Source: a virus
Virus record (IMG/VR): IMGVR_UViG_3300020442_004525
Coordinates: 1-57,997 of that record
Reading direction: 5' to 3' (one strand)
Length of the DNA: 57,997 nt
Below, in pieces: positions 5,798-34,918 of this stretch (position 1 is its first letter; each line of letters opens with the position of its first letter). Below the pieces are notes generated by a model. The model ran no database searches and was not told where the DNA came from. It saw only the letters and a list, made by a program, of their open reading frames with translations. A program made the position numbers and the translations under genes.

Positions 5798-6142
5798 ATG
5801 GATGAAGGGCTACTCAAGAATATACTTACTCAGTCTAGGGTTTATTTTTTAAAAAATAGATACCAGGAGTCGTGCGGTGTTGTTTTTAATAAAAAGGTAA
5901 AATTTACACCAATAAAAAATGAGGCACCAAGTGGGTGGACTTTCTCTTTAACTCCAAGACTTCACTTAATAAAGTCTAAAATAAAAATAATCTGCCATTC
6001 TCACCCTTTTGGGGATGCGTATCCATCTGCTCTTGATACTAAAACCGCAATAGATCTCGATACTCCTTTTCTTATATATAGCTGTTTATATGATAATTTT
6101 GTATTTTTTGACCTTGAAAAGTGTAAGCCTTATAAGGTCTAA
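5798..6142 (+). CDS. Tail assembly protein K-like, JAMM/Mov34 metallopeptidase
   Basis: 114 residues from the ATG at 5798. The frame can be extended to a TTG at 5756 inside the L-like gene, but the ATG one base after the L stop is the simpler choice. The JAMM zinc-peptidase signature is complete: Glu24, then H67-S-H69-P, Ser77 and Asp80 (HxHP-x6-S-x2-D). Lambda gpK carries a JAMM domain plus an NlpC/P60 domain. Only JAMM is present here, so no peptidoglycan hydrolase half is visible in this gene. It probably acts in tail-tip assembly or protein processing; the substrate is unknown. Confidence 0.85.
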   Translation: MDEGLLKNILTQSRVYFLKNRYQESCGVVFNKKVKFTPIKNEAPSGWTFSLTPRLHLIKSKIKIICHSHPFGDAYPSALDTKTAIDLDTPFLIYSCLYDNFVFFDLEKCKPYKV

Positions 6143-30624: not shown

Positions 30625-31473
30625 TTAAATTTGATTTATGTTCTGCAGCCACCCTGACTCTTGGGATCTGAGTGGTCTGTATCTTCTGTAGCTACATGTC
30701 CAGGTTATTTCGCCCAGTCTGATGATGGGAATAATTCTAAAATTCCTTTTCATCATTTCTTTAGATTTGTGTGTTTTTGAAAGATCTTCACCCTTGTTTT
30801 TTAGGAAAGCTCTGCATATTAATTGCTCTGGAAATTTTACCCCATCTGCAAATGGAGTGTTGCACATATATACTGCCGTTTGGAATGCTCTTAGCATCGT
30901 GCAAGTGGGTGCGCCAATAATGTGGTCTGATATATGAAACTTCTCCTCCTGGTCTTTTCTGAAGAAAATGTCTGAGGTGAAAATCTTGCCATACTCTTTG
31001 AACATTTCCCTTGCGAAAACCTCTAGTTGTGAGTAGATTTCATCTGATCTTACCTTGATCGACATGTTTCCAGTCGCAGCTTCTAGCCCGTTTCTTGTTG
31101 TGAAATTTTGAAAAATCCATGGTGAGGCACCCCTGCTGCCTAATCTTTTTTCATAACGAGGTAGGTCTTCGTATTTATTTAATACTAGAGTGATTGATGG
31201 ATCATCTATTAGGTCTTTAATTATTTCCAAATTGTCATTATCCCAACATGATATAACTAAGTTTCCTAGCATTTTATCTTCTGTCAGTGGGTTTCCTTCT
31301 AATTTTTTTGATAAATATTGCCTGCTTTTAATTAATTTTAAATAAATTGGTATGGACTCCCTCATTCTTTCGTTAATTGGCCCCTGTATAATTATTGAAA
31401 GAGAGTTCTCTAGTGCTTCCATTTTGGGGAGCATTCTTTTTAAGTAAGAAAGATACCAATCATCCATGTTCAT
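30625..31473 (-). CDS. WavE-like surface polysaccharide (LPS) biosynthesis protein
   Basis: 282 residues from the ATG at 31473. The frame extends to a TTG at 31503, but the ATG sits in an ATGA overlap with the upstream stop. Family features of WavE-type LPS proteins are visible: an early SIIIQGPI, an LVISCWDND segment, then SIKVRSDEIY and KFPEQLICRAFLK. WavE proteins are putative glycosyltransferases of the LPS core in Vibrio and relatives. This gene ends the surface-sugar operon that starts with the winged-helix gene. The donor and acceptor cannot be told from the sequence. Confidence 0.65.
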   Translation of the reverse strand: MNMDDWYLSYLKRMLPKMEALENSLSIIIQGPINERMRESIPIYLKLIKSRQYLSKKLEGNPLTEDKMLGNLVISCWDNDNLEIIKDLIDDPSITLVLNKYEDLPRYEKRLGSRGASPWIFQNFTTRNGLEAATGNMSIKVRSDEIYSQLEVFAREMFKEYGKIFTSDIFFRKDQEEKFHISDHIIGAPTCTMLRAFQTAVYMCNTPFADGVKFPEQLICRAFLKNKGEDLSKTHKSKEMMKRNFRIIPIIRLGEITWTCSYRRYRPLRSQESGWLQNINQI

Positions 31474-31892
31474 GATAGATAGTCCGAGCAAACCCCGAAA
31501 CAATTCTGGTACTTTGCGTATTTAGAGTTGTTGCATACTATTATAGATTTCTCGCACACTTTTCTGTGCGGATATGTCCAGATAAACCCTTTTGAGGTTA
31601 ACGTGTACGCATCGTTCTCGTGCCAAAAGACATTGAGTTGATGCATTGATGATAGTAATTCAAGTGATTCTATGTTTTTACAATGAATCCAAAGACTGTC
31701 TCTATATTCTAATAGGAAATCTAGATCTATGTCGTACTGCGCTTGGTCATGCCCTGAGTAAAATCCATCGTGAAACCAAACGTCGATTTCTGCATCAAAG
31801 CCTTTGTTGATTGCATGTACGATGTGATTCGGATTGTTTTCATTTTCTGGATCTTTTCCCGAGGTATTGCCTCTATGCGCTATTAGTTTCAT
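31470..31892 (-). CDS. Short glycerophosphodiesterase-like (GDPD/PI-PLC fold) protein
   Basis: 140 residues. The start MKLIAHRGN, followed by ENNPNHIVHAINKGFDAEIDVW and a later GHDQAQY, matches the GDPD pattern: His-Arg-Gly loop, Glu/Asp metal site and a second catalytic His. Classical GDPD enzymes have about 250 residues, so this is a compact form like those found beside sugar-nucleotide genes in capsule and LPS loci. It overlaps the preceding HAD-nucleotidyltransferase gene by 20 bases and is coupled by ATGA to the WavE-like gene. It could trim or release a phospho-sugar or phosphoglycerol group; this is inference. Confidence 0.6.
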   Translation of the reverse strand: MKLIAHRGNTSGKDPENENNPNHIVHAINKGFDAEIDVWFHDGFYSGHDQAQYDIDLDFLLEYRDSLWIHCKNIESLELLSSMHQLNVFWHENDAYTLTSKGFIWTYPHRKVCEKSIIVCNNSKYAKYQNCFGVCSDYLS

Positions 31893-33258
31893 AATTATTT
31901 ATGAAAAAACTTAAATCCTCAGGAGTTCCCAAGCCCCACATTGAGTCTTTTGGTATTCCGAAAATTTTAATTTTCTCTCCATTTAATATACACTCATTAT
32001 ATACTGGGCAAACGTAAAATTCGTTATTGGTTCTGATATTTTTCTCGATCATTTGCTCCGCAGCTCTGACGTAATTCTCTCCGTGCTTGAAATAATAAAC
32101 CCCCACAGTTGCATGGTTGCTTATGGGTTTTTTCTCTGCGACCTCTTGAACGAACCCATCTTCATCGAGTTTTGCGTATGACCATTTCGGGTGAGAGGAT
32201 TCAAATGTAAGTATACCCCCATCCGTTTCATCTCCTATCATTGAGTACATGAATTGATTACTATCCCAATCTAGAAATTGGTCTGAGTTGGCTATGAGTA
32301 GTGGTTCTTTATTGTTTATAAAACTTTTCGCTAGTAAGGTTGTGCATGCCGCACCTTCTGTTAAGCCTTCTACTTGTATGATTTTGCAGTTTGGGGCTAT
32401 TAGATTTAGGGTATGCTGTAGTGCGTATTTTTCGTAGTGGGATTTCTGTACTATGAATATGTAGTTTGCGTTGATATTTAAACTCTCTACTACGGCTTGT
32501 ATCATCGGCTTTCCTTTTACGTCGATGAGTGGCTTGGGAAAAGTGTAACCCGCCTGCTCGAATCTACTGCCCGCTCCAGCCATTGGTATTAGTACGTTCA
32601 TGCTCCCGCCTTCCCATTTTGTTTTTTCATAAGGTTTGTCTTCGATTTTGTTTATATAATTCATAATTTTATTAAAAGTTAAATCATCAGGATTTTTAAT
32701 GGCTCCTAAGTGGGCTCCAGAATTTAGCACCGCTTCCCTTCCTGTGTTGGAGTCTTCTAATATTAACGTGTGCCTTGAGGGAATACCTGACTGAGTCATG
32801 ATCTTATAATACATTTCAGGGTTAGGTTTAGATCTTAATACGTCTTGATTTGATACTATATGGTCAAAGAAATGCAATATTTTTTTATTATGTAATGATG
32901 TTATTATACTATCTCTTACTGAGTTTGATGCTACTGATAATTTAAAATTTTGATCTTTTAATTTTTGTAGTATTAAGGATAATCTTCTATCCTCTACATA
33001 ATTATTCATTAAGTTTAATGTTATTTCTTGTTTTCTTGCCCAGACTTGGTTGTACATGTCTTTTGGTAGACCTTTGTTTTTGGTTAGTAATTCTAATTTT
33101 TTTGTCGTTGGTAGTCCATCGTAAGTTGATAGATGTTCCTCTTTGGTTATTGCGAAATCTGGGCATATTTCCCTGAGTGCGGCGTCAAATGATTTAAAGT
33201 GTAACTCTCTAGAGTCTATGAGCACACCATCTAGATCGAATATAATTTGTTTTATCAT
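31873..33258 (-). CDS. HAD phosphatase fused to a sugar-phosphate nucleotidyltransferase
   Basis: 461 residues. Residues 1-205 are a HAD-superfamily hydrolase of the phosphoglucomutase/phosphatase type: FDLDGVLIDS with Asp8 and Asp10, then SVASNSVRDS, SKPNPEMY and LILEDSNTG. Residues 220-455 are a nucleotidyltransferase of the sugar-1-phosphate type: LIPMAGAGSRF, then FPKPLIDVKGKPMI, IANSDQF and EFYVCPVYNECI. Together they could make an NDP-sugar donor for the neighbouring transferases. Met220 has a ribosome-site-like GGAAGGCGGGAG just before it (ATG at 32601), so a separate nucleotidyltransferase may also be made. The start is coupled by ATGA to the preceding glycosyltransferase gene. Confidence 0.8.
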   Translation of the reverse strand: MIKQIIFDLDGVLIDSRELHFKSFDAALREICPDFAITKEEHLSTYDGLPTTKKLELLTKNKGLPKDMYNQVWARKQEITLNLMNNYVEDRRLSLILQKLKDQNFKLSVASNSVRDSIITSLHNKKILHFFDHIVSNQDVLRSKPNPEMYYKIMTQSGIPSRHTLILEDSNTGREAVLNSGAHLGAIKNPDDLTFNKIMNYINKIEDKPYEKTKWEGGSMNVLIPMAGAGSRFEQAGYTFPKPLIDVKGKPMIQAVVESLNINANYIFIVQKSHYEKYALQHTLNLIAPNCKIIQVEGLTEGAACTTLLAKSFINNKEPLLIANSDQFLDWDSNQFMYSMIGDETDGGILTFESSHPKWSYAKLDEDGFVQEVAEKKPISNHATVGVYYFKHGENYVRAAEQMIEKNIRTNNEFYVCPVYNECILNGEKIKIFGIPKDSMWGLGTPEDLSFFINNYETNSA

Positions 33259-33998
33259 TTTATAAGTTTTAATAATATATTATTAAAAGAAGAGGATCCT
33301 GTCAACTGTTTGTATTTACATTGCTGAATATTTAGACATATTGTTAATACTGATTCTGGAACTTTAATCATGTATTCTGGGTAACCTTCATTCCATAGCA
33401 TCTGGATTGCTGTAGAAATACTGAATATACTGTTCATATATTTATTCATTTGATCTGGGTGTCCTATCGCAATTTGATCATTAATTTGATTAGGTAAAGA
33501 TGCTTTATCATAGACGAAGCTGAATGCGAATTCTTTCTTTAACTCTTCTTCATGATTATATATATTTGTGCTTTCGAATAGTGGTAGTCTTATATGTTTG
33601 TTTTTTGCGCAATCTTTTAATTCATGTACTTTTATTTGTTCAAGAACCTGTATGTCAGGCCTTAATCTAATTACTAAATCATATTCTTTTTTCTTGAAGG
33701 TCATATGATCCTGTATCATTGTGTTTAGAATTTTAAGTCCTGCTGCCATAGGTATCAAGCCTGCGCCAGGCTCGCATGGTAGTTTGTCTGTAGGCCCTAA
33801 AAAATCCATGGTTTCTTCAAAGTTTAAAATCTTCCTCTTAACAGGATTGTAGACGTTGCAGAAGTCATATGAGGGTTGGTCATCCCAGGTGGTTACGAAT
33901 ATATCTGGCTTCAGTGGCCACACGATATTCTCTAAGATTGACTCCCAGCAATCTTCCCATCGGCCTAATTTGCCACTAAAGCAAAGCGCGACCTTTAT
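33255..33998 (-). CDS. Glycosyltransferase-like surface-sugar protein, probable AUA start
   Basis: 247 residues if translation starts at the ATA at 33998. Reading from there gives IKVALCFSGKLGRW, then PDIFVTTWDD and YDLVIRLRPDIQV. This matches the family of sugar-transfer proteins that begin KVALCFSG and continue with a D-x-F-x-x-T-W-D motif. In this frame a stop lies at 34076-34074, and no ATG, GTG or TTG occurs before the GTG at 33923, which would remove the conserved N-terminus. A perfect AAGGAGG lies 8 bases upstream of the ATA. The ATA overlaps the TAA stop of the upstream gene (ATAA), in the same way as the ATGA overlaps of its neighbours. The acceptor is unknown. Confidence 0.65.
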   Translation of the reverse strand: MKVALCFSGKLGRWEDCWESILENIVWPLKPDIFVTTWDDQPSYDFCNVYNPVKRKILNFEETMDFLGPTDKLPCEPGAGLIPMAAGLKILNTMIQDHMTFKKKEYDLVIRLRPDIQVLEQIKVHELKDCAKNKHIRLPLFESTNIYNHEEELKKEFAFSFVYDKASLPNQINDQIAIGHPDQMNKYMNSIFSISTAIQMLWNEGYPEYMIKVPESVLTICLNIQQCKYKQLTGSSSFNNILLKLIK

Positions 33999-34918
33999 TT
34001 TTCGACCCTCCTTATAACATGCCTGTCTAAATTTTTGCCTTCTAAGTTCGGATTTAAGAAAAAGTTGTTTGATTTAATTAGGTTCATGAGTGCCTCCACC
34101 ATTTTTTCGGCATCATACTCTAGAGGGTAATATAGTTGCGGAAATGTTAGCCACCTAGTTTGGAATGCTAGAGGGCATATGTGTGGGTCTTTACATTCTT
34201 TGGCCCAGGAAAGCGTTGGTATGTTGAACATGTAACCAAAGTACTTTATTCCGGAATCTATAGCAAGTAAACCCGAGCTTGATTTTATCATTGATATGAT
34301 TGTTGGTAGACTGTCTGACACTATCTCTACGTGCCCCTGTTCTTCTATGTTGTCCCTTATGAAGTCTTCGGTTGAAGGTGTTGATAGGATTTTTATGTCA
34401 AACAAAGGCGGTATGTTAGATATGATTTTGTTTATATAGCTTTTGCTCATTCTGTGGTTGTTGCCCATGTTATCTGAAGCTAGATGTAGGACAACATAGG
34501 AGTTGTTTGCATTGTAAGGCAGTATTTTTAAGCTTGGTTTCGGGAAGTGGTAAAAGTAGTTTTGCCAGTGGAAATCGTAGTATATCCATTCCATCCAGTC
34601 TAGGTGGAGATTGTAGAACTTATCGTAATTTAACATTTGAGCTTTTTGCTCGGGGTCTGTGTTGTTGATGTGTGCTGCAAAATTTTCTGAACCAAATTGT
34701 GAGGAGATTCTGTATTCGTCCGATTGTCTTTTGAGTAAAGTTCGACTAGAGTAAAAATCATACAGGCTAAGTAGAGTATCTGACTGGAGGCTTTTGCCTC
34801 CTGTGTCTGAAAATAAATGTATTTCTGCTCCAGGGTACTTATCTAGTATAGCAGGAACGAATCTATTGGCTAGAAGATGGTCTCCTAGTCCTCCTTCCAT
34901 TCTTACTGAAATTTTCAT
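33995..34918 (-). CDS. GT9-like (heptosyltransferase-type) glycosyltransferase
   Basis: 307 residues. The N-terminus has the GT9 glycine loop (GGLGDHLLANRFVPAILDKYP). The C-terminal half has the acceptor/donor features SYVVLHLASDNMG, SSSGLLAIDSGIKYFGYMF and IPTLSW. GT9 enzymes move ADP-heptose or related sugars onto LPS core or other acceptors. Here the loop is GGLGD, as in many phage and environmental relatives. The start is coupled (ATGA) to the winged-helix gene, and its stop overlaps the AUA start of the next gene. The assignment to GT9 is good; the sugar is unknown. Confidence 0.65.
   Translation of the reverse strand: MKISVRMEGGLGDHLLANRFVPAILDKYPGAEIHLFSDTGGKSLQSDTLLSLYDFYSSRTLLKRQSDEYRISSQFGSENFAAHINNTDPEQKAQMLNYDKFYNLHLDWMEWIYYDFHWQNYFYHFPKPSLKILPYNANNSYVVLHLASDNMGNNHRMSKSYINKIISNIPPLFDIKILSTPSTEDFIRDNIEEQGHVEIVSDSLPTIISMIKSSSGLLAIDSGIKYFGYMFNIPTLSWAKECKDPHICPLAFQTRWLTFPQLYYPLEYDAEKMVEALMNLIKSNNFFLNPNLEGKNLDRHVIRRVEK

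Follow-up and report, generated by a model that had tools for sequence, protein, structure and literature searches.

The window analysed here, by which we mean the whole stretch of 57,997 nucleotides of viral DNA, carries on its minus strand a glycosyltransferase-like gene at positions 33255-33998 (247 codons, beginning IKVALCFSGKLGRW..., the TGA at 33257-33255 included). It lies in a series of genes that comprises an HTH gene, the gene immediately upstream (33995-34918, minus strand; 307 aa and no Pfam match), the glycosyltransferase-like gene itself, a gene encoding a fusion of a HAD hydrolase with a nucleotidyltransferase (31873-33258, minus strand), two more genes and a ribonucleotide reductase. 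The upstream gene has an ATG start at an ATGA overlap and the ATG of the downstream fusion gene overlaps the stop of the glycosyltransferase-like gene. The same operon is present, as far as the contigs extend, in the viral loci designated L032, L033, L035/L036, L004, L019 and L020. We take the gene to be part of a sugar-modification operon that is conserved among uncultured phages. The HAD hydrolase/nucleotidyltransferase fusion is also found in cyanophages such as S-CAM9, where it is 57% identical along its length. The window and the loci L003-L024 carry the same sugar-modification genes on viral contigs whose sizes span about 12 to 211 kb, which suggests that the cassette is exchanged among viruses that differ in genome size. 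Elsewhere on the minus strand, the TTG start at 31503 of the gene at 30625-31503 is probably placed too far upstream, since the alignment with most homologues begins only at residues 8-18, in the vicinity of two ATG codons.

The beginning of the glycosyltransferase-like gene is unusual. From the in-frame TAA at 34076-34074 down to the GTG at 33923, the reading frame (IKQLFLKSELRRQKFRQACYKEGRK-IKVALCFSGKLGRWEDCWESILENI) contains no ATG, GTG or TTG. This GTG (33921-33923, minus strand) is the earliest canonical start; it is codon 50 when the frame is counted from stop to stop and codon 26 of the gene as delimited above. In the place where a start codon would be expected there is an ATA (33996-33998, minus strand), which forms with the next base a 4-nt overlap, ATAA (33995-33998, minus strand), that includes the TAA of the upstream gene. 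A perfect Shine-Dalgarno sequence, AAGGAGG (34007-34013, minus strand), is located within the upstream gene, in its C-terminal codons (I-R-R), and is separated from the ATA by a spacer of 8 nt (34006-33999). The original prediction had described the in-frame stop, the GTG, the AAGGAGG and the ATA with its overlap, and a base by base check of the frame bears out both the absence of a canonical start before the GTG and the coordinates of the Shine-Dalgarno sequence, the ATA and its overlap with the stop.

Homologues of the gene were found at 34 viral loci in IMG/VR, with identities of 45-76%, together with one remote relative (L044). GenBank phage records yielded no usable homologue, only weak matches with E values of 0.2 and above, and cellular genomes gave a single weak and partial match. 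The 34 homologues align with the window's protein from residue 1, and when their codons in the start column are tallied, near-duplicate contigs included, 31 of the 34 have ATG, one (L032) has GTG and two (L019 and L004) employ a substitute nearby; none has ATA. In L019 (position 906) the start column holds ATC and a GTG without a Shine-Dalgarno sequence is found five codons upstream; in L004 (position 2998) the column holds CCA and an ATG lies four codons upstream, only 2 nt past AAGGAGG. Every homologue therefore starts at the ATA column or at most five codons from it, which gives good support to the original claim that the protein begins at this column. Relatives that begin at the equivalent of the GTG at 33923, which the original prediction had named as a refutation, were also looked for and none was found, so that the start at this column stands unrefuted.

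A pattern scan of distinct sequences recovered 30 junctions with ATGA, one with GTGA and a single ATAA, that of the window; the 4-nt overlap of stop and start is thus kept as ATGA or GTGA in all 31 distinct homologous junctions matched by the pattern. A separate scan of viral contigs for the window's ATA junction gave no match. Scans that accepted ATG, GTG, TTG, ATA, GTA or TTA as starts showed for this gene ATG or GTG in the relatives and ATA in the window only, and for the upstream gene one ATA, in L013. For the closest homologue in the same operon, L032, a comparison of its sequence, ataaggaggctgcaagaGTGA, with that of the window, ataaggagggtcgaaaaATAA, reveals an identical Shine-Dalgarno sequence at an identical spacing and a GTG in the place of the ATA. 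Parsimony indicates that the ATA is derived in the lineage of the window's phage and is not a conserved state.

A strong and well-spaced Shine-Dalgarno sequence is expected of genes with AUA starts and it is present here. The calculated duplex of the region before the ATA with the 16S tail has an energy of -13.3 kcal/mol, and no other among the 36 gene starts of the window that were compared pairs as strongly; the value for the GTG at 33923, which has no Shine-Dalgarno sequence, is -2.9 kcal/mol. In this comparison most gene starts of the window have little or no Shine-Dalgarno sequence and a few have very strong ones. The heptamer AAGGAGG occurs seven times in the window against an expectation of 8.5, a frequency not above chance, and it matters by its position, not by its abundance.

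The segment between the ATA and the GTG is constrained to the same degree as the remainder of the gene. Measured against eleven homologues, pN/pS is 0.13-0.32 for codons 2-25 and 0.20-0.31 for codons 26-247, and the identity to homologues is slightly higher in the first segment (0.70) than in the rest (0.63). As the ATA could be of any age, such constraint shows a translated N-terminus for the ancestor only; it could predate the ATA, and for the present phage it amounts to an absence of visible decay. In the structural model (pLDDT 81), residues 3-7 form the first strand and residues 18-29 the first helix. Foldseek aligns this model with GT6-type alpha-1,3-galactosyltransferases in the PDB (E about 5e-7, TM 0.4-0.5) and with glycosyltransferase-like proteins of viruses, unnamed ones from phages and giant viruses, at TM values up to 0.68. 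The curated sequence families are less generous: nothing in Pfam matches at E 0.1, and the PHROG to which the protein belongs (13607) is of unknown function. The label of glycosyltransferase in the original prediction keeps the support of a predicted GT-A-like fold, on which it rests, and finds none in Pfam.

Three other readings of the junction would dispense with an AUA start altogether. If the phage employed a genetic code in which AUA specifies methionine, the internal ATA codons should align with methionine; in six genes, however, they face isoleucine in 1086 and methionine in 86 of 1982 homologue cells, while ATG codons, examined for comparison, face methionine in 451 of 1107, and such a code is rejected. 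A shorter protein that starts at the GTG at 33923 would make use of the first canonical start codon of the frame, but not one of the 34 homologues has an ATG, GTG or TTG there, the Shine-Dalgarno pairing is feeble, and the product would be deprived of its first strand, of part of its first helix and of the near-invariant ALxFSGKLGxW motif; on the basis of the homologues' starts and the weak duplex we reject this start, which we regard as very improbable. A further proposal is that the tRNA-Lys slips by -1 on the AAAA that precedes the UAA, with stimulation by the AAGGAGG, and so fuses the upstream protein to the glycosyltransferase. The sequence GAA AAA TAA would permit the slip and there is a Shine-Dalgarno-like sequence upstream of it, but the run of A is not conserved in L032 or L033 and the homologues, with their ATGA or GTGA junctions, encode two separate proteins; this fusion is without support and its probability must be close to negligible.

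We consider it likely, from the arrangement of the sequence, that the AUA is a tolerated start of probably low efficiency, which is assisted by the strong Shine-Dalgarno sequence and by translational coupling. The start would have mutated from ATG (or GTG) to ATA in the lineage of the window's phage, and because it overlaps the upstream stop as NTGA, a G-to-A change would have converted the TGA into TAA and preserved the overlap without altering the upstream protein. The initiator tRNA would most probably still initiate at the AUA, helped by the perfect AAGGAGG at its 8-nt spacing and, presumably, by ribosomes arriving from the upstream gene, whose translation ends at the UAA of the overlap. 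Both of these helpers are retained in the window, and for this reason we regard the ATA as a functional but weaker start, with an efficiency below that of AUG and a yield that should be reduced.

The observation that such a change is not confined to one gene bears on this reading. We scanned related loci with a total length of 1.2 Mb, in which 699 frames had three or more homologues, for genes whose homology extends upstream of every canonical start. Three real genes were recovered, those of the window, L013 and L011, and in each of them the change is from ATG to ATA; the remaining matches were antisense or ambiguous frames and were discarded. In L013 (IMGVR 3300023109_003756, position 2045), it is the counterpart of the gene at 33995-34918 of the window, its ortholog, that starts with an ATA within an ATAA overlap (acggggggttaggtcATAAAAATTTCAGTAAGAATGG); a single codon separates the in-frame stop from this ATA, and L011, 84% identical, has ATG. 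The homologues at this junction comprise 8 ATGA, 6 GTGA, 3 TTGA and the one ATAA, and the ATGA-to-ATAA change of L013 is independent of that in the window. The ATAA overlap has thus been seen twice in one operon family. At an NTGA overlap the upstream TGA must remain a stop, so that G-to-A, which gives TAA, is the sole third-base change available; this restriction would account for the ATA in both the window and L013. The third gene, a different one in L011 (L011/L113, IMGVR 3300048061_000997; position 6007), reads ctttATAACAATCAAG as opposed to ctttATGACAATAAAG in the 96%-identical L034. It was rejected as another case of overlap, as no upstream gene ends at its ATA, and there is no Shine-Dalgarno sequence; lacking both, this ATA may be a plain loss of the start and the gene possibly a lost one.

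The main rival to a working AUA start is an error of assembly or sequencing, or a minority variant, at position 33996, the real phage having ATG. The window's ATA is carried by a single metagenome-derived contig, and the nearest homologue in the viral contigs, at 76% identity, is the closest available for comparison; yet the six neighbouring genes are intact, with neither frameshift nor early stop, and all three missing-start genes among the 699 frames show the same ATG-to-ATA substitution, unlike what random errors would produce, even if three is a small number. The intact neighbours and the identical change in L013 make a base error less likely, and we accord it a small though not trivial chance. 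The ATA could instead be effectively a null allele, the gene being translated barely or not at all and heading for loss. According to PMC12864459, which quotes the reporter survey made in E. coli by Hecht 2017, AUA gave up to 1% of AUG, and the ATG-to-ATA change of L011 indeed resembles simple start loss. Nonetheless, the 247 codons of the window's gene are open and without decay, and the Shine-Dalgarno sequence and overlap persist, from which we judge a null allele to be improbable. The original prediction had suggested that the AUA could keep the product low on purpose or sense the level of initiation factors during infection. AUA starts are in principle dependent on IF3, and in S. aureus the AUA starts of infC and ccpN are conserved (PMC13009471); a regulated start, however, would be expected to be conserved in orthologues and among the 34 homologues this is not so. 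With the ATA confined to the window's virus and ATG or GTG in the homologues, nothing points to a conserved regulatory start, nor does the enzyme itself give any reason for such feedback; the proposal is unsupported and, whether as a sensor or as a low dosage set by selection, seems most unlikely. Judged from the literature, a lower output is likely to be a consequence of the AUA rather than a demonstrated purpose.

A more general and speculative suggestion can also be made. At an NTGA overlap the upstream stop allows only first-base changes or the third-base G-to-A, and a mutation of the start is thereby steered toward AUA. It is conceivable, though we would not wager on it, that stop/start overlaps regularly channel start mutations to AUA, that coupled and Shine-Dalgarno-led reinitiation tolerates them, and that they constitute a recurrent and overlooked class in the overlapping genes of phages which gene finders miss. 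Programs limited to ATG, GTG and TTG would shorten or miss the window's protein and would drop its conserved motif; were ATAA overlaps to recur, the start codons of coupled phage operons would be less constrained than annotation assumes.

Overlaps of 4 nt are the commonest coupled geometry (PMC12548453), and in 4 of 5 E. coli pairs reinitiation was increased by Shine-Dalgarno sequences situated within the upstream gene (PMC6728339). The window resembles these NTGA (-4 nt) termination-reinitiation pairs in its geometry and in having the Shine-Dalgarno sequence inside the upstream gene; it differs in that its overlap is ATAA and its coupling only presumed. The rpoS allele of E. coli O104:H4 (PMC12864459) also arose by a single G-to-A change in the start codon of a gene that is otherwise intact, and this ATG-to-ATA allele still makes its protein, in amounts up to 5-fold lower; in contrast to the phage gene, it is a mutation of laboratory origin, concerns a cellular regulator and has no stop overlap. 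A further parallel is offered by S. aureus infC, ccpN and citZ, whose AUA starts, provided with strong Shine-Dalgarno sequences, operate at about 10 to 30% of the level of AUG (PMC13009471). The phage gene shares with them the AUA in place of AUG, the long Shine-Dalgarno match and the expectation of low efficiency. The S. aureus starts were demonstrated by ribosome profiling and reporters, and that of ccpN is shared by S. aureus and B. subtilis (PMC13009471), whereas the putative start of the phage gene is private to one lineage and embedded in a stop/start overlap. The window's gene is probably still translated, weakly, from its AUA, and starts of this kind, although rare, have been described before.
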